Assembly: GCA_016278415.1 (NCBI GenBank)
Contig: JADQBV010000141.1
Coordinates: 1-11,887, forward strand
Direction: 5' to 3'
DNA from: Halanaerobiales bacterium
Lineage (GTDB): Bacteria; Bacillota_F; Halanaerobiia; Halanaerobiales; DTU029
DNA length: 11,887 nucleotides
The position numbers were made by a program, and so were the translations under genes. The notes beneath the pieces are model-generated. The model did not search any database. It was not told the origin of the DNA and worked only from the letters and a program-made list of their open reading frames with translations. Below, piece after piece: positions 2,092 through 11,887 of the stretch (positions are counted from its first letter, which is position 1; each line of letters begins with the position of its first letter).

Positions 2092-3573
2092 ATGCCAGAA
2101 GAAATAGTAGCAATTTTACCCCCTTTAATTGCTATCATATTAGCCTGGGCCACAAAACAGATAATACCTGCTTTATTGACAGGACTACTGGTCGGATCAT
2201 TTATAATGGAACCTGGATTAATAACAGGTATAGCAAAGATGGTCGAGTATGTAGAGGCTACTTTTTTAAATCAGGGAAATCTGGATGTCCTTTTGTTTCT
2301 CTATGTTTTTAGTGGTTTTGTAGGTCTATTAAAAATGTCAGGTGGTATTAAAGGATTTGCCCGTTGGATTGGTAAAATCACTGAGACTAAAAAAGGCACT
2401 TTACTAGCACTCTGGGCAACAGAGTTAGTAACCTTTCTTGACTGTGCCTATCGCGTAGTTGCTACAGGTATGATCTTTAGACCCCTTGCAGATAAAAGGG
2501 GAATATCAAGGGAACGACTTGCCTTTATGCTAAATAACTCGGCAAGTCCGGTAGTTGCACTTGTTCCAATTGCTACAACCTTTGTCGGCTTTATGGTTGG
2601 AACTGTAGCAACAGGATTAAATGTAGCAGGACTGGACAGTTCACCATATATAACCTTTCTAAAAAGTATTCCCTTTAATTTTTTCAGTATTACTTCAATT
2701 ATTGTAGTAATGTCATCAATAGTTTTTAATTTTAATTTTAAAAAGATGCGTGAATTGGAAGGAGAAGAGACCGGGCAGAAAAGGAGAACTGCTGGTCATA
2801 TTAAACATAGGCCTGCTATGGATATGGAAATGGGGAATATGGATCAGATGGCTATGGGTATGAATAATAATCAAAATCCTGATACAAAGAAGAGGGAAGG
2901 ACGTATCTACAATCTTGTAATTCCTATACTATTGCTCTTACCATTGAGTTTGTATATGATGTGGTGGACAGGGCAGGATGAAGCTAACTCGTTTAGTAGT
3001 GCAATTATAAATGCCGAATCATCAAGGGCAATGTTCCTTGCTTTAGTAATTACAACTGCTGTAGCCGCTGTAATTTATCTATTTCAGGGTTTTTCTTTAG
3101 GGGAATTAACAGATAACTTCTTCAAACAGGCAAATAAGATAATTCATACAATTGCTATCCTGGCAGTAGCCTGGCCGATAGCAGATGTAACCAAAGATTT
3201 AGGCCTACCAAGATTAATTACGACAACTCTGGGGGATAATCTCCCCGGTGTTTATATACCTGTTATAATTTTTCTCGTAACCTCTTTAGTAGCATATTTT
3301 ATTGGTTCTTCATGGGGTACCTTTGCTCTTTTAATGCCGATTGCTATACCACTGGCAGCCATTACCGGTGGTTCAGTATTAATGGCTATTGGTGCTGTTT
3401 TCGCTGGTGGTACCTTTGGAGATGTTACATCACCTTTGTCAGGTATGACAGTAATGGCTGCTGGCGCAGCAGAGGCAGAACATATGGAATATGTAGAGGC
3501 ACAGATGCCCTATAATCTAACGGCTTTTGCATTAGCTGCAGTTTTATTTCTAATTATTCCTTTCTTAATGTGA
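2092..3573 (+). CDS. NhaC-family Na+/H+ antiporter with a Met-rich loop (493 aa)
   Basis: A polytopic membrane protein with the family hallmarks: FLDCAYRVVATGMIFRPLAD (116-134), LNNSASPVVALVPIATTF (147-164), SSWGTFALLMPIAIPL (406-421) and AGGTFGDVTSPLSGMTVM (438-455). These are the conserved NhaC-superfamily segments for ion exchange, in which Na+ leaves the cell in exchange for protons. The start is ATG 2092 with AAGGAG at 2078-2083; the GTG at 2083 overlaps that site and is rejected. Two transporter halves are joined by a hydrophilic segment (about 215-270) containing seven Met in 15 residues (243-257, PAMDMEMGNMDQMAMGM), which is unusual for this family and echoes the Met clusters downstream. 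The gene ends before a strong terminator. The substrate could instead be an organic ion, as some NhaC relatives carry metabolites. Confidence 0.85.
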   Translation: MPEEIVAILPPLIAIILAWATKQIIPALLTGLLVGSFIMEPGLITGIAKMVEYVEATFLNQGNLDVLLFLYVFSGFVGLLKMSGGIKGFARWIGKITETKKGTLLALWATELVTFLDCAYRVVATGMIFRPLADKRGISRERLAFMLNNSASPVVALVPIATTFVGFMVGTVATGLNVAGLDSSPYITFLKSIPFNFFSITSIIVVMSSIVFNFNFKKMRELEGEETGQKRRTAGHIKHRPAMDMEMGNMDQMAMGMNNNQNPDTKKREGRIYNLVIPILLLLPLSLYMMWWTGQDEANSFSSAIINAESSRAMFLALVITTAVAAVIYLFQGFSLGELTDNFFKQANKIIHTIAILAVAWPIADVTKDLGLPRLITTTLGDNLPGVYIPVIIFLVTSLVAYFIGSSWGTFALLMPIAIPLAAITGGSVLMAIGAVFAGGTFGDVTSPLSGMTVMAAGAAEAEHMEYVEAQMPYNLTAFALAAVLFLIIPFLM

Positions 3574-3762: not shown

Positions 3763-3806
3763 TATCTAATGATTAAGTTGATTAAAGAAATATTTTTACA
3801 AAAATG

Positions 3807-3836
3807 TTGACAAGTATTAAAGATATAGGATAAAAT
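3807..3836 (+). promoter_or_regulatory. Sigma-A-type promoter for the LysM-M23 gene
   Basis: A perfect TTGACA (3807-3812) is followed after 18 bases by TAAAAT (3831-3836). The transcript would have a leader of about 55-60 bases before the ATG at 3901. It follows immediately after the strong terminator, so this gene appears to be an independent unit. Confidence 0.6.
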
Positions 3837-3900
3837 AAAGACAATAACCTAATAGGGGTATGGGGTGTACAATATTAACATATGTTAAAGGAGTTGTAGT

Positions 3901-4803
3901 ATGAAAAAGCAGATCATAATCGTTTTCTTAATTATAATTAGTATACTAAGTAATGTAGGTTATACTGAATCGTCGCTAGATATTGTAGACGAAGTATCGT
4001 TAAACATTCAAGAACATAGTCATATTTTAAACAGTCATTCATTTGAATTAATAGATGAAAATAGACTTACGATACTTTCTTTAAAATCAATGCCTATTAC
4101 AGATATGTTAAAAGTTCATACTGTCAAAGAAGGTGAGAATCTCTGGAATATTGCTAATAAGCATGATATAGATATAGATACCTTAATAGGTGCTAATGAC
4201 TTCAATAATATAAATACAATTCGTCCTGGAGATAAAATTAATATATTACCTATGAAAGGTATTCTTTATAAAATTAGTCCAGGTGAAAATTTAAGTATTA
4301 TTAGCCAGAAATATAATCTGAAGATAGAGATTATTAAAGTACTAAATGATATAAAAGACCCTGATAAAATTTTCCCGGCTAGAGTACTCTTTCTTCCAGG
4401 TGTAAAGCCTGAGTTCGGATTTCAGGATAGAATTGAGAAGAAGTTTATCAGACCAGTAGTGGGTAGAATCTCATCACCTTTTGGCAAAAGATGGGGCAAG
4501 ATGCATGAAGGAATAGATTTTGCTGTTCCTAGCGGAACCAGAGTAGAAGCGGGGGCATCTGGCATAGTTACTTATAGTGGGTGGGCCAGAGGCTATGGTC
4601 AAACTGTTATCATAGAGCATCAGAAGGGTTTTCATACTCTTTATGCACACATTTCAAAATTATTAGTAAAAAAGGGGCAGAGGGTAAGTCAGGGTGAATT
4701 AATTGCCTTATCTGGAAACACAGGTACTACCACTGGTCCTAACTTACATTTTGAGGTACATGTAAATAGTCGCCCAGTAGACCCCATTAAGTATCTGAGG
4801 TAG
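3901..4803 (+). CDS. Secreted LysM-LysM-M23 peptidoglycan peptidase-like protein (300 aa)
   Basis: Layout: an N-terminal signal or anchor helix (about 4-19), a spacer, two LysM peptidoglycan-binding domains (about 72-116, with VHTVKEGENLWNIANKHDI; and 122-166, more diverged), then an M23/LytM endopeptidase domain (about 183-300). The domain shows HEGID (zinc ligands H202 and D206), YAHIS (H250) and NLHFE (zinc ligand H283). The first His of the usual HLH motif is Asn281, which may weaken or remove catalysis; the zinc ligands remain. The start ATG has AAAGGAG 9 bases upstream. Such proteins cleave or regulate cleavage of cell-wall cross-links during growth, division or sporulation. It has its own promoter, so it is probably not part of the neighbouring two-component system. 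Confidence 0.88.
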   Translation: MKKQIIIVFLIIISILSNVGYTESSLDIVDEVSLNIQEHSHILNSHSFELIDENRLTILSLKSMPITDMLKVHTVKEGENLWNIANKHDIDIDTLIGANDFNNINTIRPGDKINILPMKGILYKISPGENLSIISQKYNLKIEIIKVLNDIKDPDKIFPARVLFLPGVKPEFGFQDRIEKKFIRPVVGRISSPFGKRWGKMHEGIDFAVPSGTRVEAGASGIVTYSGWARGYGQTVIIEHQKGFHTLYAHISKLLVKKGQRVSQGELIALSGNTGTTTGPNLHFEVHVNSRPVDPIKYLR

Positions 4804-4934
4804 AAATTACTATTTTACATTAAGTATAATGGTTTAATTTATATTTTACAGGTGATAAATTAATTTCTCAAACTAAATAGTTGTGTAACACTATAAAACT
4901 AACTAACTAGAAAAATATGTCTATCAGATACAAA

Positions 4935-4966
4935 TTCATAATTCCTTCACATTTTACTGTTACTCT
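4935..4966 (+). promoter_or_regulatory. Copy A of a repeated response-regulator site with -10 element
   Basis: Two TTCA half-sites (4935-4938 and 4946-4949) sit exactly 11 bases apart in TTCATAATTCCTTCACA, followed by a weak -10-like TACTCT (4961-4966). The stretch 4929-4986 matches 8536-8593 at 49 of 58 positions. The 11-base periodicity is that of PhoB/OmpR-class DNA binding, with the repeats taking the place of a -35 box. It lies upstream of the response-regulator gene, so autoregulation is likely, unless the hairpin at 5035-5054 ends this transcript first. Confidence 0.65.
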
Positions 4967-4971
4967 AAAAC

Positions 4972-5062
4972 TACTCGAAAAGGGTACAAGTTAATTTCAT
5001 AGCTTGAAAAGATACTGTTATTTTTATAATTGGTCCTGAGATTACAATCTCAGGTCTTTATT
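4972..5062 (+). ncRNA. Possible short terminated transcript (leader or small RNA)
   Basis: If copy A is a promoter, transcription would begin near 4972 and meet the terminator-like hairpin at 5035-5054, giving an RNA of about 85-90 bases without a credible start codon and ribosome binding site. The first 15 bases (4972-4986, TACTCGAAAAGGGTA) can fold into a five-pair stem with a GAAAA loop, as does the equivalent position of copy B. This could be a regulatory RNA or an attenuated leader of the two-component genes. The inference rests on promoter and terminator placement only. Confidence 0.3.
5035..5058 (+). terminator. Terminator-like hairpin upstream of the response-regulator gene
   Basis: CCTGAGATT (5035-5043) pairs with AATCTCAGG (5046-5054), an 8-9 base-pair stem, followed by TCTTTATTT. 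It is 230 bases past the M23 stop codon and 160 bases before the response-regulator gene, so it ends either M23 read-through or a short transcript from copy A. Confidence 0.6.
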
Positions 5063-5080
5063 TATATGGTGAGATTTTTA

Positions 5081-5109
5081 TTGAACAAAGAGATTATTAA
5101 TACTATATT
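5081..5109 (+). promoter_or_regulatory. Candidate second promoter of the two-component operon
   Basis: TTGAAC (5081-5086), exactly 17 bases, TATATT (5104-5109). It lies after the terminator-like hairpin and about 100 bases ahead of the response-regulator start. It could provide basal expression of the two-component genes independent of copy A. Confidence 0.4.
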
Positions 5110-5212
5110 TAGTATATCTATTGAATTATAGGAATTGTTAAGATGGTTTTGTGGTATAACAATTACAGTTATTTTTTTGTGAATGAGGAAAGTGAAAGGG
5201 ATGATATTTTAT

Positions 5213-5905
5213 ATGGAAAAGAAAATATTAGTAGTAGATGATGAAAAGAAACTTTTAAAGGTTATAAAAGCATACCTTGAAAAAGAGGGATATATTGTCA
5301 AAACTGTTTCTGGTGGTAATCAGGCATTGGAAGTGGTGAAGGATTTCCAGCCTGATTTAATGGTACTGGATCTGATGTTGCCTGAAATAAGTGGAGAAGA
5401 GGTCTGCCAGAGGGTTAGACGTGAAAGTTCTCTACCGATATTAATGCTAACTGCAAAAGGTGGAGAGGATGATAAAGTTAAGGGGTTTTCATATGGTGCT
5501 GATGATTATTTAGTAAAACCCTTTAGTCTGTCCGAATTATTAGCAAGGATAAAGGCAATTTTACGTAGAAGTGACTATTCTGCTGCTAAAGCCGATGTTT
5601 TAATTTATCAGAATGGCAAGATCAGGGTATTTCCCGCAGAAATGAAGGTACTACTAGATCAGGAAGATGCTACTCTCACAAAAACTGAGTTTGATATTCT
5701 ATATGTTTTGTTAAAAAATCCTGGACAGGTATTTTCACGTGATAAATTGGCAGAAAAAGTTATGGGACTGGAATTTAAAGGGTTTGACAGAACTATAGAT
5801 GCCCATATAAAAAATATAAGGAAAAAGCTTCAACTTGATAAAAACCAATTTATTATAACGGTATATGGTGCTGGATATAAATTTGAAGGTGATAAGGATG
5901 AGTAG
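5213..5905 (+). CDS. OmpR/PhoB-family response regulator (230 aa)
   Basis: Receiver domain at about 3-117, with the acidic pair D9/D10, phosphoacceptor D53 in LMVLDLMLPEISG, T80 and K102 (VKPF), all intact. A winged-helix DNA-binding domain follows at about 130-226, with LTKTEFDILYVLLKNPGQVFSRDKL and the recognition helix FDRTIDAHIKNIRKKL, ending in the VYGAGYKFE wing. When phosphorylated by the adjacent kinase it should bind tandem 11-base repeats as a dimer. The start at 5213 is chosen because the receiver fold begins at once (MEKKILVVDDE); in-frame ATGs at 5201 and 5183 are possible, and ribosome binding sites do not decide between them. The gene overlaps the kinase gene by 8 bases. Its probable targets are the three TTCA-repeat sites in this window. 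Confidence 0.92.
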   Translation: MEKKILVVDDEKKLLKVIKAYLEKEGYIVKTVSGGNQALEVVKDFQPDLMVLDLMLPEISGEEVCQRVRRESSLPILMLTAKGGEDDKVKGFSYGADDYLVKPFSLSELLARIKAILRRSDYSAAKADVLIYQNGKIRVFPAEMKVLLDQEDATLTKTEFDILYVLLKNPGQVFSRDKLAEKVMGLEFKGFDRTIDAHIKNIRKKLQLDKNQFIITVYGAGYKFEGDKDE

Positions 5906-7295
5906 ATTAGGATTAAAGTTTTTTTCTATAATATTATTGGTGGCTCTTGGTGGACTCATTTTTACCAGTATTTATATAAACACTAGTATTGATAATAGAT
6001 TTTTTGACTATCTGTATTTAGAAGAAAAAGAGAAAATTGAAAATCTAGTAACAATAATTGAGGAAACGCTAGACGAAAATGAAAATTGGATAGATGTTAG
6101 AATGTTAGCTCACGATTTCATACGAATAAATAAGGTCAATTTATTGTTAGAAGATAAGAATGGAGATACTATATTCAACGGTCAGATGGGTATGATGATG
6201 AATAATATGATGAGTAATAATATGATGTCTAATGCCCATAATAATTATTCAAATCGTAATTCAAATAAATTTAAAAATAATAGTGAAATCTTCGAAATTC
6301 AATATAACGATAAAACGGTAGCTAATCTGTACTGGGAAACAAGCAGTAATGCAAATTTGTCTGAAAAAGCAGAGATTTTTACCAATAGAGTAAATAAAAT
6401 TATTATGATTGCTGCTATCTTTGTTTCAGTGTTAACAATATTAATAAGTTATTATTTCTCCCGTTATTTAACCAGACCTCTATTGCAGATGAATCAGATA
6501 GCAGGTAAGATTGTTAAAGGTGACTTTGACCATCATGTTGGGATAAAGGGCAAAGATGAATTGGCCGAGTTAGGACAATCTTTTAATGATATGGTTGATA
6601 AGTTAAAATATTTAGAGAAGATACGAACTGAGTCAACTTCTGATCTTGCTCATGAATTACGGACACCTTTAACTACGATCAAGAGTTATTTGGAGGGCAT
6701 CAAAGAAGGAATTTTATCAGCTGATTTAGATACAATACAAGAGATTGAAGAAGAGCTGGAACGGTTAATTAAACTGGTAAATAGATTAGGAGATTTAAGT
6801 GATGCTGAAAAAAGTATAGTTCATCAAGAAGTGGAGAAGATCTCTTTTTCTGAAATTTTACAGAATATAATAGATAGATTTTTACCACTTGCAGAAAAAA
6901 AAGAGGTTTCAATTGAAAGAAGAATAAAAGAAAATCTTAGTATTACAGCTGATCCAGATAATCTGGAATCTGTAATTATAAATTTACTTTCAAATGCAGT
7001 AAAATATACAAATGAGGGTGGGAAAATATTGATCAATCTGAAAAAAGAAGATAAAAGTATAATTTTCAGGATAACTGATACAGGTATTGGTATTGGTTCT
7101 GAAGATTTACCCTACATCTTTGAGAGATTCTACCGGACAGATAAATCACGTTCAACAAAGACAGGAGGAACAGGAATAGGTCTTGCTATAACCCGGGAAC
7201 TTGTATATGCTATGGGGGGAACCATAGAAGTAGAGAGCCCAGGTATTAATGCTGGCTCTACATTTATAGTGACTATACCTATAATTGACAATTAA
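5898..7295 (+). CDS. Membrane sensor histidine kinase with Met-rich sensor loop (465 aa)
   Basis: TM1 at about 6-28, an extracytoplasmic sensor domain at about 29-165, TM2 at about 167-187, a HAMP linker (about 188-242), the H-box SDLAHELRTPL with phospho-acceptor H252, then the ATPase domain with N box (NLLSNAVKYT, 362-371), G1 (DTGIGI), F box (FERFYR) and G2 (GTGIGLAI). All catalytic motifs are intact. The sensor domain contains MGMMMNNMMSNNMM (97-110, eight Met in 14 residues) followed by an Asn/Ser-rich stretch. Met clusters on the outer face suit Cu(I) or Ag(I) binding, as in CusS-type sensing, or Met oxidation. The start ATG 5898 lies inside the end of the regulator gene with AAGGTGA upstream, so translation is coupled. 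Confidence 0.92.
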   Translation: MSRLGLKFFSIILLVALGGLIFTSIYINTSIDNRFFDYLYLEEKEKIENLVTIIEETLDENENWIDVRMLAHDFIRINKVNLLLEDKNGDTIFNGQMGMMMNNMMSNNMMSNAHNNYSNRNSNKFKNNSEIFEIQYNDKTVANLYWETSSNANLSEKAEIFTNRVNKIIMIAAIFVSVLTILISYYFSRYLTRPLLQMNQIAGKIVKGDFDHHVGIKGKDELAELGQSFNDMVDKLKYLEKIRTESTSDLAHELRTPLTTIKSYLEGIKEGILSADLDTIQEIEEELERLIKLVNRLGDLSDAEKSIVHQEVEKISFSEILQNIIDRFLPLAEKKEVSIERRIKENLSITADPDNLESVIINLLSNAVKYTNEGGKILINLKKEDKSIIFRITDTGIGIGSEDLPYIFERFYRTDKSRSTKTGGTGIGLAITRELVYAMGGTIEVESPGINAGSTFIVTIPIIDN

Positions 7296-7385
7296 TATTA
7301 AAATGCTAAACTTCTATATAATTAAATTGATCTATGTCTATTTTCTATACTCCATTAATATTTAATAGGAATTTCTTTAGTAAAA

Positions 7386-7417
7386 TTCATAATTTCTTCA
7401 TATTCTCTTGTTATGAT
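7386..7417 (+). promoter_or_regulatory. Copy C of the response-regulator site with -10 element
   Basis: TTCA half-sites at 7386-7389 and 7397-7400, 11 bases apart, within AATTCATAATTTCTTCATA. A -10-like TATGAT follows at 7412-7417, at exactly the same offset (15 bases from the second TTCA) as in the other two copies. It lies between the kinase gene and the first Met-rich gene. Unlike copies A and B it lacks the downstream TACYC/GGGTA inverted repeat. Confidence 0.65.
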
Positions 7418-7538
7418 TTTATTAACAGGTGAGGATATGAAGAAATTTACACTGTAATGGGAGGAGGAACTTATTTTTGTAAATTATAACTAAAAATTAT
7501 AATATATAGATATATAAATATATGTGAGGTGTATAAAT

Positions 7539-8438
7539 ATGAAAAAAAGTAAAATAATATTGACAGTTTTTACTCTATTAATATTAATTTCAGTTTCTTC
7601 TGTAAGTAATGTTCAGGCGATGATGGGTGGAGGATTTGGTAATGGTCTATTAGGTGGTCTATTTGGTATTTTCGGTATGGGCACAGGTAATCAGGGAATG
7701 TTTTCGAGTAATATGAGTTTCGGTATGGGTCCAGGTATGGGATCTAATAGTCAAAATTATCAAGGGTATCCATATAACGGCTCCGGGAATATGGGTAGAA
7801 ATATGATGGGAAGTGGTATGTCTGGTTCAGGAATGTACGGATCTGGTATGTCTAACAATGGAATGTATGGAAATCAAATTAGTCCAAATCAGCCAATGAA
7901 TCAGCAGGAACAAAATAACAGTTATAATCTACAGGCAGAAATAGATTTTGAAGATGGCGAATTAAGAAAAATTGCCGTTGAATTTATTAATAAGCAATTA
8001 GGTGAGCAATATACAGTGGGAGATATCCTGGTATTTAATAATTCACCTTATTATATATCTGTAATTGACAGGAAGACTGGAAATGGAGCATTTGAATTAT
8101 TATATGATCCTTATTCGAACAGATTTAGTCCGGCACCAGGCCCCAACAGAATGTGGAATTTAAATAATGCAGGTACAGGAGTTAATCAAAATAAGAATGT
8201 TAACACTACTGTTAATCTTTCACGGGAAGAGTCAGTAGAGCAAGCTGAATATTTCCTTCAGGAAAATGGCAGTCAGTTAACTGTAGAAAGTGAAGGACAG
8301 CTTTTTAATGGATATTATACCTTTTATACTGGTGTAGGAGATAAAACTGTCGGGATGATAAGTGTCAATTCAGGCAGCGGGGAGGTCTGGTTCCATAACT
8401 GGCATGGACAAGTGGATAGGGTAATAAGGGACAACTAA
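7539..8438 (+). CDS. Exported Met/Gly-rich protein with two-part PepSY-like core, paralog 1 (299 aa)
   Basis: A signal peptide (about 1-27) ends in NVQA, a good cleavage site. Residues 28-120 form a low-complexity Met/Gly/Asn/Ser linker with about 15 Met, including repeats of the SGMSGSGMYGSGM type. The C-terminal core has two units: 138-207, ending SPYYISV, GAFELLYDP and GPNRMWN, and 228-297, with GYYTFYTG, VGMISVNSGSGEVW and HNWHG. The units look like diverged PepSY folds, small domains common in exported proteins. The start is ATG 7539 with GAGGTG at 7526-7531; the GTG at 7524 overlaps that site and is rejected. Probably controlled by copy C. Metal (Cu/Ag) binding by the Met linker is plausible but unproven. 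Confidence 0.85.
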   Translation: MKKSKIILTVFTLLILISVSSVSNVQAMMGGGFGNGLLGGLFGIFGMGTGNQGMFSSNMSFGMGPGMGSNSQNYQGYPYNGSGNMGRNMMGSGMSGSGMYGSGMSNNGMYGNQISPNQPMNQQEQNNSYNLQAEIDFEDGELRKIAVEFINKQLGEQYTVGDILVFNNSPYYISVIDRKTGNGAFELLYDPYSNRFSPAPGPNRMWNLNNAGTGVNQNKNVNTTVNLSREESVEQAEYFLQENGSQLTVESEGQLFNGYYTFYTGVGDKTVGMISVNSGSGEVWFHNWHGQVDRVIRDN

Positions 8439-8440
8439 AA

Positions 8441-8464
8441 AAAGTTATAAATCTTCATAACTTT
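8441..8464 (+). terminator. Weak AT-rich hairpin after Met-rich gene 1
   Basis: AAAGTTAT (8441-8448) pairs with ATAACTTT (8457-8464) around an eight-base loop, just after the stop codon at 8438. The stem is AT-rich and the T run is poor, so it is at best a weak terminator. Confidence 0.35.
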
Positions 8465-8541
8465 ATTTCGCAATCAAACATTAATATATGATAGGCTTTA
8501 CTCTAAAGTCGATTAAAAAAATAGGTTTAATAAGGTACAAA

Positions 8542-8573
8542 TTCATAATTTCTTCACAATCTAGTGTTATAAT
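8542..8573 (+). promoter_or_regulatory. Copy B of the response-regulator site with perfect -10
   Basis: TTCA half-sites at 8542-8545 and 8553-8556, 11 bases apart, in TTCATAATTTCTTCACA, followed by a perfect TATAAT at 8568-8573. The repeats occupy the -35 region, as expected for a PhoB-type activated promoter. Transcription would start near 8579-8581, giving a leader of about 40 bases to the SHOCT-protein gene at 8622 and the Met-rich gene behind it. Confidence 0.72.
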
Positions 8574-8578
8574 AAAAC

Positions 8579-8593
8579 TACCCGATAAGGGTA
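8579..8593 (+). repeat. Inverted repeat at the predicted transcription start
   Basis: TACCC-GATAA-GGGTA, five-base arms. The same position after copy A (4972-4986) holds TACTC-GAAAA-GGGTA, where the base change keeps an RNA G-U pair. It may be a 5' stabilising RNA hairpin or an operator for a second regulator; C/G-tract arms of this sort recall CsoR-type copper-repressor operators, though no CsoR gene is in the window. Confidence 0.45.
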
Positions 8594-8621
8594 TTTGGTA
8601 TAAAAGAAAGGAGCAAATATT

Positions 8622-8867
8622 ATGATGGGTTTTGGAATGGGTATGATGGGCGGAGGTGGATTTTCCTTGATATTCTGGATAATAATCATTATTGCTGTAA
8701 TTTATTATTTTAATAATCGAAGTCAGAGCGGTTCTAGTTCTGATTATAGTAATAGGAATTTCTCTAAGTATAATGAAAATAGGGCTGAAGAGATAGCTAA
8801 AGAGCGTTATGCTAGAGGCGAAATAAACAAGGAAGAACTTGATGATATTTTGAAAAATTTGAAATAA
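8622..8867 (+). CDS. Single-helix membrane protein with C-terminal SHOCT-like domain (81 aa)
   Basis: The N-terminus MMGFGMGMMGGGG has five Met in nine residues. One membrane helix follows (about 14-31), then a Ser/Asn-rich linker, and a C-terminal SHOCT-like motif (about 54-81: AEEIAKERYARGEINKEELDDILKNL). SHOCT domains are short helical modules at the ends of many small membrane proteins, with suspected oligomerisation or docking roles. The start ATG 8622 has AAAGGAG at 8607-8613. It is first in the transcript from copy B and is followed after 60 bases, without a terminator, by Met-rich gene 2, so both should be made together. The Met-rich tip would probably face outside, with the basic/acidic SHOCT end in the cytoplasm. 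Confidence 0.85.
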   Translation: MMGFGMGMMGGGGFSLIFWIIIIIAVIYYFNNRSQSGSSSDYSNRNFSKYNENRAEEIAKERYARGEINKEELDDILKNLK

Positions 8868-8927
8868 AGTATTTAAAGTAATTTGAGGAAAAATAAAAAA
8901 AGATATTTAAAGAAGGAGTGAATTAAT

Positions 8928-9761
8928 ATGTTTAAAAATAAGGTTTTTACATTGTTAATTGCAGTAATGTTGGTAGTTGGTATTTATTCAATAGCTGGAG
9001 CTCATGGGGCTTATAATGGTAATAATAACATGATGAGTAATGATTATAATGGTCAAATGAATGGTTTTAATAACCTAGGATATAATGGTCAGGGATATAA
9101 CGGTATGATGGGATCAGGCGGAATGATGGGTATGATGAGTATGATGATGGGCAGTGGCATGGGCTATGGTAATATGATGGGGAACGGCAATGGAATGATG
9201 GGAGGATATGATCCTGGAGTTAATGGAAATATAGATTACAGTCTTTCAGCACTTGGTATGAATGAAGATGAAGTTAAAGATCTAGCAATTGAACTTGTAG
9301 AAAGGCAGTTTGGTTCAGATTTTCAGATAAGTGATATATTTATTTTTGATAATTCACCATATTATATATCGGTTGTCAAGAAAGATAGTGAACAGGGTGC
9401 CTTTGAATTGTTATTTGATCCTTATAGAAAAGTAATTTATCCGGAATATGGACCAAATATGATGTGGAATACTGAAAATGGTATGAGCAATATGATGGGG
9501 TGGAGTGCAGCAAATGAAGAGAATATGATTTCTCGCCAGCAAGCATTAGATGATGCCAAGAAATATGCTCAGGCAAATGGCTTTACAGTGGAAGATGAAG
9601 GACATCAGTTCCCTGGTTATTATACATTCCATACAGGAGATACGAAAGATAATACAAGGGGCATGCTAAGTGTTAATGCTTATACAGGTCAGGTCTGGTA
9701 CCACAATTGGCACGGAGATTTAGCAACTGTAATTGAAGTTGAAAAACATATTGATAAATAA
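8928..9761 (+). CDS. Exported Met-rich protein with two-part PepSY-like core, paralog 2 (277 aa)
   Basis: A signal peptide (about 1-25) ends SIAGA before HGAYNGN. Residues 31-100 are Met/Gly/Asn/Tyr-rich with about 17 Met, peaking in SGGMMGMMSMMMGSGMGYG. The core matches paralog 1 throughout: ISDIFIFDNSPYYISVV, GAFELLFDP, GPNMMWN, then a short Met patch (NGMSNMMG, 184-191), and RQQALDDAKKYAQANGF, GYYTFHTG, GMLSVNAYTGQVWYHNWHG. Both core units resemble PepSY domains. The start ATG 8928 has AAGGAG at 8913-8918. It is second in the copy B operon behind the SHOCT protein. The linker differs in sequence from paralog 1 although composition is the same, so selection appears to act on composition. 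A metal-binding or oxidant-quenching role is inferred. Confidence 0.87.
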   Translation: MFKNKVFTLLIAVMLVVGIYSIAGAHGAYNGNNNMMSNDYNGQMNGFNNLGYNGQGYNGMMGSGGMMGMMSMMMGSGMGYGNMMGNGNGMMGGYDPGVNGNIDYSLSALGMNEDEVKDLAIELVERQFGSDFQISDIFIFDNSPYYISVVKKDSEQGAFELLFDPYRKVIYPEYGPNMMWNTENGMSNMMGWSAANEENMISRQQALDDAKKYAQANGFTVEDEGHQFPGYYTFHTGDTKDNTRGMLSVNAYTGQVWYHNWHGDLATVIEVEKHIDK

Positions 9762-9853
9762 AGGTATAGAGCAGATGATAGTTTGATAATAATTTCAAGT
9801 ATCTTAATATATTATAACTGTTTGAAAAGATATAATGAAAGGAGTGTTATGTA

Positions 9854-10078
9854 ATGGGTTATTGTTATGGCCTAAGTGGTTATGGTTCAACATTAGGAGG
9901 TTTCTGGTGGATTATGCCTTTACTGTTCTGGGGTTTGATAATTACAGGTGTAGTTCTTTTAGTTAGATCAAACAGGAAAAAAGGTAGTTACCAGGCTTTG
10001 GATACACTCAAACATGAATATGCACTGGGGCGTATATCTAGAGAAGAATTTATAAGCAGAAAAAAAGATTTACAATAG
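9854..10078 (+). CDS. Second single-helix SHOCT-like membrane protein (74 aa)
   Basis: A Gly/Tyr-rich N-terminus with one Cys (MGYCYGLSGYGS), one membrane helix (about 16-38), a basic stretch (RSNRKKG) and a SHOCT-like end (about 46-74: ALDTLKHEYALGRISREEFISRKKDL). It shares design with the 81-residue protein but the sequence outside the SHOCT motif differs, so the pair is related by architecture more than close duplication. The start ATG 9854 has AAAGGAG at 9838-9844. A TATAAT at 9831-9836 without a good -35, and TTGATA (9783)-N16-TAATAT (9805), are weak promoter candidates; read-through from Met-rich gene 2 is equally possible. A strong hairpin at 10090-10123 ends the unit. Confidence 0.82.
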   Translation: MGYCYGLSGYGSTLGGFWWIMPLLFWGLIITGVVLLVRSNRKKGSYQALDTLKHEYALGRISREEFISRKKDLQ

Positions 10079-10089
10079 AATTTTTTAGA

Positions 10090-10123
10090 AAATAATCAGA
10101 AGAGAAGTCTCTTCTGATTATTT
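10090..10123 (+). terminator. Long-stem terminator after the second SHOCT gene
   Basis: Sixteen-base perfect arms (10090-10105 and 10108-10123; AAATAATCAGAAGAGA and its complement) around a two-base loop, with a T run on either side. It can act in both directions. It marks the end of the operon, and the chemotaxis-receptor remnant begins just beyond it. Confidence 0.8.
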
Positions 10124-10132
10124 GATTCTAGA

Positions 10133-10491
10133 ACTCATCTAGCCAGCGATAAGATGGATACAGGTATTATGGAGATAGCTCATGGTCAAAAAGTTGTAAA
10201 ATCTGCTACAATGATTTTCAAGAAATCAAAAAAGCCATTAATAAGGTTTTACTAGGTATAAATAAATCTAATAATATAATCAAAGAAGCGAATAATAATA
10301 GTCAGACGGTTTCTATAAATATTACTAATATATCCAGGATTGCTAAAGAAAGTTCTAATAATGCAAAAGAAGTGGCATCATCCAGTCAAGAACAGACAGC
10401 TTTAATAAAAGGAACCACAAATATGACACTTGATCTTTCCTTAGTGGATGTAAATTTAAAACAGTTAGTTGATCAAAATAAAATTTATTAA
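10133..10491 (+). pseudogene. Truncated, frameshifted methyl-accepting chemotaxis protein remnant
   Basis: The 3' end of a chemotaxis-receptor gene without its front. One frame gives HLASDKMDTGIMEIAHGQ then KVVKSATM (up to about 10213). After a -1 shift near 10214-10218 the next frame gives FQEIKKAINKVLLGINKSNN and, further on, ISRIAKESSNNAKEVASSSQEQTALI before a stop at 10489-10491. These are the usual features of the receptor cytoplasmic tail, including the SSQEQT adaptation-helix pattern. No start codon or ribosome binding site is present, and the sensor, membrane and signalling-tip regions are absent. The remnant records a deletion or insertion at this site. The 230 bases after it hold an inverted repeat but no other gene. 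Confidence 0.75.
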
Positions 10492-10530
10492 ACTATTAAG
10501 GGAATATGTCTTAGACAATGTTTTATTATT

Positions 10531-10548
10531 ATGTAAAACACTTTACAT
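10531..10548. promoter_or_regulatory. Perfect dyad upstream of the methyltransferase gene
   Basis: ATGTAAA-ACAC-TTTACAT, seven-base arms with a four-base spacer, lying between the chemotaxis remnant and the methyltransferase gene. No T run follows, so it is not a terminator. TTTACA (10542-10547) could serve as a -35 with TATACT (10569-10574), but the 21-base spacing is too long. It could be an operator for an unknown dimeric regulator. Confidence 0.35.
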
Positions 10549-10722
10549 GAAAAAAAGGTAATTTATTCTATACTATACTTAGGAATATAACAGGTACTGA
10601 AATATTTTAATATATTGATTTGAGGAATAGTAAAGAAAAATTTATTGGTTTTGAAACAAATCAGGATAAAATAAATAAAAATTTAGATTATCCTAAATAA
10701 TTGAGGAAGTGACTTTCGATAT

Positions 10723-11355
10723 ATGGTTGATAATAATAAGATCAAAAAGCGCTATAATAGGATTGCCCTTATCTACGACTCGATGGAAGGCTTGATGGAA
10801 AAAGGAAAGATGGGGAGCTGGCGTAAAAAACTGTGGCAGAGAGTAGAAGAAAATCTACCAGATTCAGGCGGGAAACTGCTGGAAGCAGGTGTAGGGACAG
10901 GTAAAAATATAGCATACTATCCTGATAATATTGATTTGTATGCCATCGATTTTAGTAAAAATATGTTACAAAAAGCAAAGGAGAGAGCAAAGGGTTCTGG
11001 GAAGGATATAAACTTATTACAGATGGATATCCAGAATTTAGATTTCCATGATAATTTTTTTGATATTATTGTAACAAGCTGTGTCTTCTGTTCTGTACCG
11101 GATCCTGTGAAGGGTCTTAAGGAGTTAAGGAGAGTTTGTAAAACTGACGGTAAAATCATAATGCTGGAGCATATGCGGTCTAAAACGGAACCTGTAGGTA
11201 AATTAATGGATCTTTTTAACTGGGTTTCTTTATATACCTATGGTGCCAATATTAACCGTAGGACGATGGAGAATATTGAAAAAGCAGGTTTAAAGATAAA
11301 AGAAATAAATGATTTATTATTTGATATTGTTAGGGAAATTGTACTGGAACCTTAA
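10723..11355 (+). CDS. Class I SAM-dependent methyltransferase, METTL7/UbiE-like (210 aa)
   Basis: A Rossmann-fold methyltransferase. Motif I is KLLEAGVGTGKN (51-62), the acidic residue for SAM ribose is D76 (AIDFS), motif II/III is FDIIVTSCVFCSVPDP (113-128) and the post-motif is GKIIMLEHMRS (143-153). The block from CVFCSV through ELRRVCK to LEHMRS is close to what I recall of METTL7-type enzymes, which methylate alkyl thiols; small UbiE-like or phospholipid methyltransferases are alternatives. The ATG is weakly served: AGGAAG ends 13 bases before it, but an in-frame TGA upstream leaves no other start. A third Met-rich paralog gene begins 40 bases after its stop, so they are likely co-transcribed. 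The substrate cannot be read from sequence. Confidence 0.82.
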   Translation: MVDNNKIKKRYNRIALIYDSMEGLMEKGKMGSWRKKLWQRVEENLPDSGGKLLEAGVGTGKNIAYYPDNIDLYAIDFSKNMLQKAKERAKGSGKDINLLQMDIQNLDFHDNFFDIIVTSCVFCSVPDPVKGLKELRRVCKTDGKIIMLEHMRSKTEPVGKLMDLFNWVSLYTYGANINRRTMENIEKAGLKIKEINDLLFDIVREIVLEP

Positions 11356-11395
11356 GCTCAGGTATATCTTGAACTTAAAAAAGAGGTGTAATAGC

Positions 11396-11887
11396 ATGAA
11401 TTTAAGTAAAAATACAACAATTGTTTTGATTGTTTTACTGATACTTATCGGTATAGGAGGCACCTATTATATGATGGGTTGGCCTGGAACAGGTTATTTT
11501 CAAAGCCAGAACCAGGTATCATATACTGAGGATGAACTAAAGGAATATGTATCTAATTTTATAAGGCGAGAATTAGGTTCTGAATATCAGGTATCTGACA
11601 TCTTTGTATTTAGTAATTCACCTTACTATATTTCAGTGGTAGAAAGAGGTACCGGTAAAGGGGCCTTTGAGCTACTCTTTGATCCTGATACAAGAGACTT
11701 TCAACCAGAACCTGGTCCCAATATGATGTGGAATCAGAAGTATGGTATGATGGGTAGGAATTGGATGGGTCTGAATCAGCTTTCTAATAATAGTGAATTC
11801 AATAATATAAATCAAATATCTAAGAATGAGGTCCTGGAATATGCCCGTAAATATCTGTCTGAAAATGCTCAGGAAATAGAAGTAAGT
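11396..11887 (+). CDS. Membrane-anchored PepSY-like protein, paralog 3 (partial, 164 codons in window)
   Basis: ATG 11396 has AAGAGGTG upstream and opens a frame that runs past the window edge. An N-terminal helix (about 8-24, no clear cleavage site) probably anchors it. Unlike paralogs 1 and 2 it has almost no Met-rich linker, only YMMGWPGTGY, before the first core unit: DELKEYVSNFIRRELGSEY, VSDIFVFSNSPYYISVV, GAFELLFDP and GPNMMWN. A patch (YGMMGRNWMG, 116-125) follows, then the start of the second unit (SKNEVLEYARKYLSENAQ). Identity to paralogs 1 and 2 across the core is plain by eye. Co-transcribed with the methyltransferase gene. The missing C-terminus should contain the HNWHG-type ending if it is a full member. 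Confidence 0.85.
   Translation, partial: MNLSKNTTIVLIVLLILIGIGGTYYMMGWPGTGYFQSQNQVSYTEDELKEYVSNFIRRELGSEYQVSDIFVFSNSPYYISVVERGTGKGAFELLFDPDTRDFQPEPGPNMMWNQKYGMMGRNWMGLNQLSNNSEFNNINQISKNEVLEYARKYLSENAQEIEVS

Follow-up and report, generated by a model that had tools for sequence, protein, structure and literature searches.

A Met-rich two-component and exported-protein island of a Halanaerobiales bacterium as a probable outer arm of the copper/silver response

Results

The stretch of DNA analyzed here (the window, all 11,887 nucleotides of it, from a salt-loving, anaerobic Halanaerobiales bacterium) carries a compact gene island that is probably the part of a Cu(I)/Ag(I) response acting outside the cytoplasm. 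Judged from sequence, the island most likely uses Met-studded proteins to sense and buffer toxic copper, or else silver, at the cell surface. The gene content is Halanaerobiales-like and comprises a PhoB-type regulator, a kinase with a Met-rich loop, three exported paralogs, two SHOCT-like proteins, and a methyltransferase. An earlier note had listed the two-component pair with its Met-rich sensor, the three exported paralogs, and the methyltransferase, and all of these are borne out by Pfam and the ORFs. These parts, the boxes and their conservation, the copper-gene neighborhoods of relatives, and the operator-like sites are direct observations.

The same note had reported no classical copper ATPase, oxidase, or CsoR gene. 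This holds for the 14 of 21 listed window ORFs scanned with Pfam, none of which matched a copper ATPase, a multicopper oxidase, or CsoR (the remaining seven are mostly antisense or overlapping). The hallmark of a copper resistance island, a Cu ATPase, oxidase, or CopZ at the same locus, was likewise absent from the 14 scanned ORFs and is present in some relatives. Searches of the window for tRNAs and for known RNA families at gathering scores found none. A viral origin was rejected (viral contig scan: 11 pattern matches, none confirmed, no relative), as was a chemoreceptor remnant suspected by eye at 10261-10488, which Pfam did not recognize.

The OmpR/PhoB-type response regulator (5213..5905, + strand; Response_reg E = 1.8e-31, Trans_reg_C E = 2.9e-24) is followed by the sensor histidine kinase (5898..7295, + strand; two TM segments, HAMP, HisKA, and HATPase_c), whose ATG overlaps the 3′ end of the regulator gene by 8 nt. 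The extracytoplasmic region of the kinase contains a Met-rich loop (6186..6233, + strand; MGMMMNNMMSNNMMSN) with a maximum of 8 Met per 25 residues. Comparable clusters, of 4 to 8 Met per 25 residues, recur in all 10 close kinase homologs (P0121-P0130) and are absent from three distant ones (P0131-P0133; 1 to 3 Met in 25 residues). We also compared kinases encoded within 4.5 kb of genes of the exported family with HAMP kinases encoded elsewhere in those genomes (of 25 linked kinases, the window kinase included, 21 could be scored, and of 25 controls, 15; 30 control loci were fetched, two controls were removed as family-linked and eight were unparsed). The sensor regions of the linked kinases are richer in Met, both by percentage (Mann-Whitney P = 1.6e-4) and in the densest 25 residues (P = 5.9e-4), P values that are optimistic because the compared rows are related to one another; for MM doublets, P was 0.13. 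Met content is at most 4.2% in 9 of the 21 linked kinases, including all five from Trichococcus. One control kinase (L106), encoded near two P-type ATPases, is Met-rich as well.

Kinases of the CusRS and CopRS systems are thought to sense periplasmic Cu/Ag, as we propose for the window kinase, and an excerpt of PMC10100754 assigns a functional contribution to a Met triad loop of CusS. The window kinase differs in its longer Met cluster and in scoring far below the cut-offs of the curated CusS/SilS/CopS-type models (TIGR01386 and NF007345; 203 bits versus 292.55 and 148.9 versus 423), and the locus differs in that no copper pump or oxidase is encoded among the scanned ORFs.

Shared control sites had been claimed for the island, and these are evident: the box AAATTCATAATTTCTTCAYAWT, an 11-bp direct repeat of the form TTCAYAAN4, occurs three times in the window with at most one mismatch each, where 0.01 copies would be expected even with up to three mismatches allowed. 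Box 1 (4932..4953, + strand; one mismatch; repeat families D1 and D2) precedes the regulator/kinase pair, box 2 (7383..7404, + strand; exact) precedes paralog 1, and box 3 (8539..8560, + strand; exact, with TATAAT downstream at 8568) precedes the operon of the first SHOCT-like gene and paralog 2. Since box 1 sits at 4932, the island probably begins upstream of 5213. Downstream of box 1 and before the regulator gene, a terminator-like hairpin (5035..5054, + strand) may be due to chance, because three such sites were found against 2.5 expected. No box was found before the methyltransferase gene of the window.

Although an exact short-box search of 118 loci returned two matches only, a relaxed search of 15 chosen loci and the window revealed sites in Halanaerobium and Petroclostridium. 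Across six genomes the box was found 27 times, versus 5 times with the reversed pattern, and 17 of 25 distinct sites, as tallied from gene lists of a crude ORF caller, head operons with SHOCT, family, DUF305, PspA, LTXXQ-like, DUF2680, or HMA-DsbD genes. In four related loci (L009, L010, L011, and L032) the counterpart of the first SHOCT-like gene also has the box upstream, with 0 to 2 mismatches. In H. congolense, H. saccharolyticum, and a Halanaerobiales MAG, the kinase/regulator pair lies away from the regulon, and no box was seen before it.

The presence of the same box before PspA and LTXXQ/Spy-like genes of relatives (LTXXQ under its Pfam cut-off) lends some support to the envelope-stress half of the earlier proposal. 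It would also fit an explanation to which we assign a minor share of the probability and which is compatible with a copper response, namely that the exported proteins are mainly kinase ligands within a general envelope-stress system, copper being one trigger among several. The best full-length curated match of the kinase is BaeS, albeit at 238.8 bits against a cut-off of 500. In addition, an excerpt of PMC12714742 describes PepSY proteins as enriched more than 60-fold beside two-component genes, with DbfQ directly controlling the kinase DbfS. In DbfQRS and other PepSY-two-component modules a PepSY-type exported protein is likewise encoded with a kinase and a regulator; however, DbfQ is small with a single PepSY domain, whereas the window offers two domains, a Met-rich linker, three paralogs, and a copper setting. 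Against such a ligand role, many family copies have no adjacent kinase yet are accompanied by SHOCT genes or copper ATPases, and CsoR-like sites at sister operons point to copper.

These CsoR-like operators are clear at sister operons in H. saccharolyticum and H. congolense; the matches in the window are weak. The sequence ATACCNNNNAGGGGTATR, allowing up to three mismatches, matches the window 7 times (2.0 expected). One of its matches, TAACCTAATAGGGGTATG (3845..3862, + strand; two mismatches), lies just 3′ of a sigma-70-like promoter (3807-3836; 11/12, the best in the stretch 3800-11887) and before a gene for an exported LysM + M23 peptidase (3901..4803, + strand; Peptidase_M23 E = 2.3e-36, LysM E = 8.8e-21), which by this site alone is a possible further member of the island. 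A degenerate CsoR-operator-like palindrome, TACCCGATAAGGGTA (8579..8593, + strand), is located just 3′ of the box-3 promoter. The pattern TACCSGNTAAGGGTA occurs without mismatch at box promoters of H. saccharolyticum, the Halanaerobiales MAG, and the PspA-SHOCT operon of H. congolense; with up to one mismatch it gave 10 matches, versus 4 when reversed. Two Halanaerobium genomes (G001 and G002) have 10 box sites between them, and at 5 of these a CsoR-like site is no more than 150 bp away, against an expectation of 0.008; these combined promoters are near-identical to promoters of a methyltransferase-CopA-CsoR operon and of P1B ATPases. By the same crude gene calling, 12 of 21 CsoR-like sites directly precede a copper gene or a SHOCT, family, DUF305, or PspA gene, and nine lie elsewhere. 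The UbiE-like SAM methyltransferase of the window (10723..11355, + strand; Methyltransf_11 E = 1.7e-22) is 70% identical to one within the CopA-CsoR cluster of H. saccharolyticum.

The exported proteins belong to an unnamed family with a Met-rich linker followed by two PepSY-like domains that end in GPNMMWN and HNWHG, the tandem arrangement being read from a predicted model. Paralog 1 (7539..8438, + strand; variant GPNRMWN) has a Met/Gly-rich linker; paralog 2 (8928..9761, + strand) carries GPNMMWN at 9450-9470 and HNWHG at 9702-9716; and paralog 3 (11396..11887, + strand) is membrane-anchored, has a short linker, and is incomplete at the window end. GPNxMWN is thus found in all three and HNWHG in the first two, the third stopping before that position. 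Paralog 2 scores below the cut-off of PepSY PF03413 (17.4 bits versus 24; E = 0.0055), a precomputed PF03413 call exists for 5 of 120 listed homologs, and a Foldseek search against the PDB gave no significant match (best E 0.018, an unrelated protein). YpmB/YpeB showed no significant sequence match to the window protein either (best YpeB E = 0.29), and we know of no GPNMMWN/HNWHG motifs in these double-PepSY proteins. We counted 674 homologs of the family, with 535 confirmed loci spread over Bacteria and Archaea, and studied a sample biased to close relatives (88 loci: 80 kept of the 535 and 8 of 13 plasmid records, three plasmid records being without annotation). In many fetched loci the GPNMMWN/HNWHG core stands together with kinases of the window's type and with SHOCT genes, as the earlier note had anticipated.

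Of the two SHOCT single-helix proteins claimed previously, the small single-helix proteins are present, but their SHOCT Pfam scores stay below cut-off. The first (8622..8867, + strand) combines a Met-rich N terminus with a SHOCT-like C terminus (PF09851, 21.9 bits; cut-off 27), and the second (9854..10078, + strand) gave a weak DUF1707 match only (E = 0.057), SHOCT being unlisted. Both share one homolog cluster, and related proteins exceed the Pfam cut-off (44 bits in L133, 28.2 in L142, 30 in L011). A counterpart of the second gene occupies the same position in L009, L010, and L032. Genes of this cluster lie within 1 kb of a family gene in 38 of 88 loci, and their density is 45 genes per 171 kb near the family versus 5 per 691 kb at a distance of at least 4 kb. 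A Pfam scan of family neighbors found SHOCT in 19 of 130 ORFs versus at most 1 in 116 far ORFs, the only usable count of that scan because 4 of 131 listed ORFs were omitted as doubtful and three P-type ATPases were added by hand. Very little was found in the open-access literature that links this family or SHOCT membrane proteins to metals; in an excerpt of a Haloferax silver study (PMC10694973), silver at 0.25 mM is reported to induce a SHOCT-domain gene, which we liken to the present ones by domain only.

Of the 63 family copies, 14 (in 13 of 49 genomes) have a copper P1B ATPase no farther than 10 kb away among the matches listed, with 0.95 expected. The genomes represent 49 of 80 genome loci, hand-picked at roughly one per lineage; the 63 copies are all family matches, two short pieces among them; and the ATPase set (TIGR01511, at least 480 bits) consists of 91 matches, five only together with frame neighbors, so that split matches may be missing beyond those listed. 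For the other 49 copies, some of them on short contigs, the listed matches include no strong copper ATPase at up to that distance. CsoR-family regulators were within the same 10 kb for 4 of 63 copies (0.50 expected). In L043, L046, and L057 the family gene and a CopB-type ATPase gene are separated by 0 to 21 bp, and on a Meiothermus plasmid the family and SHOCT genes are placed amid genes for a multicopper oxidase, a four-helix copper protein, CopA, a metal-sensitive regulator, and a two-component pair. Two of five annotated plasmid loci inspected (L001 and L005) contained no copper gene. Together with the CsoR-like operators on sister operons, this proximity gives good support to the earlier guess that the island would respond to a metal. 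The further claim, that the locus would be a distinct solution doing without the classical copper genes, is not supported, because the modules of relatives often lie near CopA/CopB, CopZ-like, and CsoR genes.

The metal may vary between relatives, since the Trichococcus copies L031 and L033 adjoin an ATPase without copper motifs, which by motif we take to be of the Zn/Cd type, and an ArsR-type regulator is nearby; ArsR-type genes occur in several loci. A system for a wider range of soft metals (Cd, Zn, Pb, As, or U besides Cu/Ag), with clade-dependent specificity, is a less likely reading, itself compatible with a copper response. The tandem-PepSY protein UipA of Microbacterium binds uranyl according to an excerpt of PMC8963506, iron being named in a cited title, and the predicted model suggests that the window shares with UipA/UipRS a tandem PepSY-like protein beside two-component genes. 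UipA was absent among the PDB sequence matches of the window protein. Uranyl is said to bind UipA at a negatively charged face, whereas the window proteins have Met/Trp/His motifs and Met linkers; on the window side there are also SHOCT partners, CsoR-like sites, and, near relatives, copper ATPases. Against the broader specificity, Halanaerobium, which provides the genomes nearest to the window, points to copper by its CsoR-like sites and the shared methyltransferase, and cation diffusion facilitators, used as a control, are not clearly enriched (2 of 63 copies versus 0.79 expected; 85 of 90 matches used, the five omitted being weak pieces, none near a family copy).

It is very unlikely that the Met-rich surface proteins instead act as a sink for HOCl or peroxide, with reversibly oxidized surface Met sensed by the kinase. 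The Met composition would also fit oxidant scavenging, and some relatives (L004, L006, and L062) have peroxiredoxin or AhpC/TSA genes nearby; the proximity to copper genes is stronger, however, and the nearest named relatives are obligate anaerobes.

Discussion

Returning to the preferred reading, a copper/silver response, the Met-rich loop of the kinase would bind Cu(I)/Ag(I), and its PhoB-type partner would then act on the 11-bp-repeat box to activate its own operon, paralog 1, and the SHOCT-paralog 2 operon. The Met-rich linkers of the exported double-PepSY proteins, and perhaps also the conserved Met/Trp and His/Trp motifs, could bind Cu(I)/Ag(I), so that these proteins may serve as surface sinks or as acceptors for metal exported by CopA/CopB. 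The SHOCT proteins would add Met-rich tips at the membrane. Several of the corresponding Halanaerobium operons have a CsoR-like operator as well, so that control by a copper sensor inside the cell and by the Met-loop sensor outside may converge on one gene set in these relatives.

PepSY-plus-two-component modules are already known; the family itself is unnamed. Excerpts of three papers on PepSY and copper (PMC12542790, PMC9426467, and PMC12004943) treat PepSY-TM proteins or do not mention the family. A further likeness is offered by copXL of Staphylococcus aureus, in which, according to an excerpt of PMC5947656, a predicted surface lipoprotein, CopL, is CsoR-controlled and adjoins a P1B-3 ATPase. 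In Trichococcus loci a YdhK/CopL-type DUF1541 gene follows the family and SHOCT genes. CopL has DUF1541, whereas the window has a double PepSY-like protein and adds a Met-loop two-component system.

More speculatively, the locus could exemplify a widespread, undescribed copper module in which kinase loop, double-PepSY linker, and SHOCT tip share a Met-rich "language," composition rather than sequence being selected, and in which the outside Met-loop and inside CsoR sensors converge on the same promoters. GPNMMWN/HNWHG might then form a new Met/Trp/His site for Cu(I)/Ag(I), similar to CusF in make-up but not in fold, and the exported proteins might report metal loading to the kinase.

If the proposal is true, the dual-control promoter of regulator box and CsoR-like site would be a concrete object for testing. 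A large unnamed protein family and tiny SHOCT membrane proteins would gain a testable role, and copper handling outside the membrane would extend to anaerobic bacteria and archaea.

Gene content of the island and its regulator boxes

The island opens with a gene for a PhoB/OmpR-type response regulator (from 5213), whose end is overlapped by 8 nt by the gene for a two-TM HAMP sensor kinase. The kinase gene is followed, in this order, by paralogue 1 of the exported double-PepSY-like family (a family marked by a Met-rich linker and GPNMMWN and HNWHG motifs), a SHOCT-like membrane protein, paralogue 2, a second SHOCT-like protein, a UbiE-like methyltransferase, and paralogue 3, which is incomplete and runs off the window end. 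The window is AT-rich (GC content 32.6%), and the closest relatives of its proteins belong to Halanaerobium (protein P0006, loci L009–L011). The Pfam scan, which covered 14 window ORFs, revealed neither a copper ATPase nor an oxidase nor CsoR. The stretch 10130–10490 looks coding without holding an intact ORF; by eye it resembles a chemoreceptor remnant, but Pfam does not recognize it. Upstream of the island, an NhaC-type Na+/H+ antiporter (2092–3573) carries another Met cluster (AMDMEMGNMDQMAMGMNNNQ, 2815–2874), and two small Coat_F-like proteins just under the Pfam cut-off (251–752 and 890–1204) and a rubrerythrin/ferritin-like protein are also encoded there.

The box AAATTCATAATTTCTTCAYAWT occurs at 4932 (one mismatch), 7383, and 8539, each time ahead of one island unit, with 0.01 copies expected. 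The core consists of the 11-bp unit TTCAYAAN4 in direct repeat, the layout of PhoB-family boxes, and the copy at 8539 is followed by TATAAT at 8568. The window's own methyltransferase gene has no box ahead of it. Between the first box and the regulator gene lies a terminator-like hairpin (5035–5054) that would give a short leader transcript and may be due to chance.

In relatives, the core recurs with zero to two mismatches ahead of the cluster-leading SHOCT gene at the four other Halanaerobiales loci (L009, L010, L011, and L032). In Petroclostridium (L022) and a Clostridiales MAG (L023), it precedes the family gene as tandem copies with two to three mismatches, and a related methyltransferase gene of Petroclostridium (L013) is preceded by the core with three mismatches. 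The family genes of L021, L024, L036, L038, L039, and L040 are not preceded by a box.

Neighborhoods of the family in relatives

Among 88 loci from relatives, a set biased to close relatives, 38 have a SHOCT-cluster gene within 1 kb of the family gene. The density of such genes falls from 45 in 171 kb at this distance to 5 in 691 kb at distances of at least 4 kb. Within the first 20 residues, the mean number of extra Met is 2.61 for the SHOCT-cluster proteins (n = 66) and 0.53 for 384 other small ORFs. Loci of Clostridia, Chloroflexota, and Spirochaetes place kinase and regulator genes next to the family gene. The gene order is fixed in four Chloroflexi loci (L059, L062, L070, and L088; the Pfam run covered L062 only), where family gene, response regulator, histidine kinase, and two SHOCT genes diverge from genes for an L,D-transpeptidase, a DUF1573 protein, and two unknown exported proteins. 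At eight archaeal loci (L041, L052, L054, L055, L066, L075, L077, and L079), seven of them titled Methanoperedens or Methanoperedenaceae, a conserved trio follows the family gene: a small regulator that looks winged-helix-like by eye, a 59-amino acid membrane protein, and a glutaredoxin-like protein.

Of 63 family copies, at least 14 (in at least 13 of 49 genomes; 0.95 expected) have a strong Cu-type P1B ATPase within 10 kb, four have a CsoR-family gene within that distance (0.50 expected), and two have the cation-diffusion control (0.79 expected). In L043, L046, and L057, only 0 to 21 bp separate the family gene from the start of a CPH-type (CopB-like) ATPase gene. A Meiothermus plasmid places family and SHOCT genes amid a multicopper oxidase, a four-helix copper protein, CopA, a metal-sensitive regulator, and a two-component pair, and on two Streptomyces plasmids, family and SHOCT genes have DUF305, DUF3105, and CopC genes in their vicinity; the other two annotated plasmid loci, from Rhodococcus and S. 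goshikiensis, show no copper genes. Six Trichococcus loci contain a DUF1541-cluster gene; one of these genes was tested and proved to be related to YdhK, whose structure served as the template for a model of the staphylococcal copper lipoprotein CopL (PMC5947656). The ATPases adjoining the family gene in L031 and L033 lack copper motifs, which counts against a purely copper-based explanation.

Met content in the sensor regions of the linked kinases

The window kinase shows no sensor domain in a Pfam scan, and its extracytoplasmic part holds the Met-rich stretch MGMMMNNMMSNNMMSN (nt 6186–6233). Sensor regions are Met-richer in kinases encoded within 4.5 kb of a family gene than in other HAMP kinases of the same genomes (21 versus 15 scored). 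The difference gave p = 1.6e-4 when scored as Met percentage, 5.9e-4 in the densest 25-residue segment, and 0.13 for MM doublets, the rows being related to each other. Met does not exceed 4.2% in 9 of the 21 linked kinases, including all five from Trichococcus, which lie 2.2 kb from the family gene. Six genomes were searched for the window kinase (H. saccharolyticum, H. congolense, a Halanaerobiales MAG, Sporosalibacterium, Petroclostridium, and the Clostridiales MAG of L023), and in all of them the best match has a Met cluster, as judged by eye. Such a cluster is present in all 10 close kinase homologues and absent from the three distant ones listed. The loops show no residue-by-residue alignment, so what is conserved seems to be their composition and not their sequence.

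The putative box regulon and a second, CsoR-like operator

Across six genomes, TTCATANNNYCTTCAYA occurs 27 times, versus 5 for the reversed pattern. By our reading of the gene lists, these are 25 distinct sites, 17 of which head operons with SHOCT, family, DUF305, PspA, LTXXQ-like (under the Pfam cut-off), DUF2680, or HMA-DsbD genes; three lie within genes, and the other five are followed by a gene of another kind or by none that is clear, one of the five lying in a doubtful 68-amino acid ORF. A single 14-kb stretch of Sporosalibacterium unites a boxed SHOCT pair, a kinase/regulator pair, a DUF326 gene (of the copper-storage type), a gene that is CopZ-like by eye, and a copper ATPase gene. In Petroclostridium, three kinase/regulator pairs adjoin box operons, and for two of these pairs CsoR and copper ATPase genes are close by as well. 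The pair is located away from the regulon, with no box ahead of it, in H. saccharolyticum, H. congolense, and the Halanaerobiales MAG. The box also precedes exported LTXXQ (Spy/CpxP)-like proteins, under the Pfam cut-off, at the Halanaerobium loci L134 and L139, a possible link to envelope stress.

In the SHOCT-PspA-family operon of H. saccharolyticum and H. congolense, the box is preceded at 84 bp by a second promoter that ends in ATACCCAATAGGGGTAT or a near copy and in H. saccharolyticum overlaps the end of a 123-amino acid ORF. ATACCCAATAGGGGTAT follows the same pattern as ATACCtataGGGGGTAC (copA) and ATACCctggGTGGGTAT (copX), the S. aureus sites that PMC5947656 proposes for CsoR. Like promoters precede a methyltransferase gene heading a CopA-CsoR cluster, other P1B ATPase genes, and DUF305-SHOCT-DUF302 and PspA-SHOCT operons. 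The window's methyltransferase shares 70% identity with the one in the H. saccharolyticum copper cluster. Such operator-like sites, with up to one mismatch, number 21 in three genomes, versus 2 for the reversed pattern. By our reading of the lists, 12 of the 21 immediately precede a P1B ATPase, methyltransferase, CsoR, 146-amino acid pre-CopA, DUF305, PspA, or SHOCT gene, and two more are followed by a CsoR gene at a distance of about 0.1 and 0.5 kb; the remaining seven do not fit, and three of these fall inside MAG ORFs. Within the two Halanaerobium genomes G001 and G002, 5 of 10 box sites have a CsoR-like site within 150 bp (0.008 expected), and at L124, L129, L162, and L164 (Halanaerobium), Met-rich DUF305 proteins head DUF305-SHOCT-DUF302 operons with both elements. 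These sites, of the form ATACC-N4-AGGGGTAT, would be bound by CsoR. Window counterparts are weak: 3845–3862, before the LysM/M23 gene (two mismatches), and a degenerate palindrome at 8579–8593.

A probable surface arm of a copper response

In outline, this kind of system is known, since PepSY proteins paired with two-component systems have been described for UipA (PMC8963506) and DbfQ (PMC12714742). The island departs from these in its motifs, in having SHOCT partners, and in its copper setting; we recognized no paper treating the family in the open-access literature searched. The island is best read, from sequence and gene context, as the surface arm of a copper(I)/silver(I) response. The Met-loop two-component system would drive this arm, a CsoR-like switch would additionally do so in relatives, and the Met-rich double-PepSY proteins would be likely metal sinks or acceptors.
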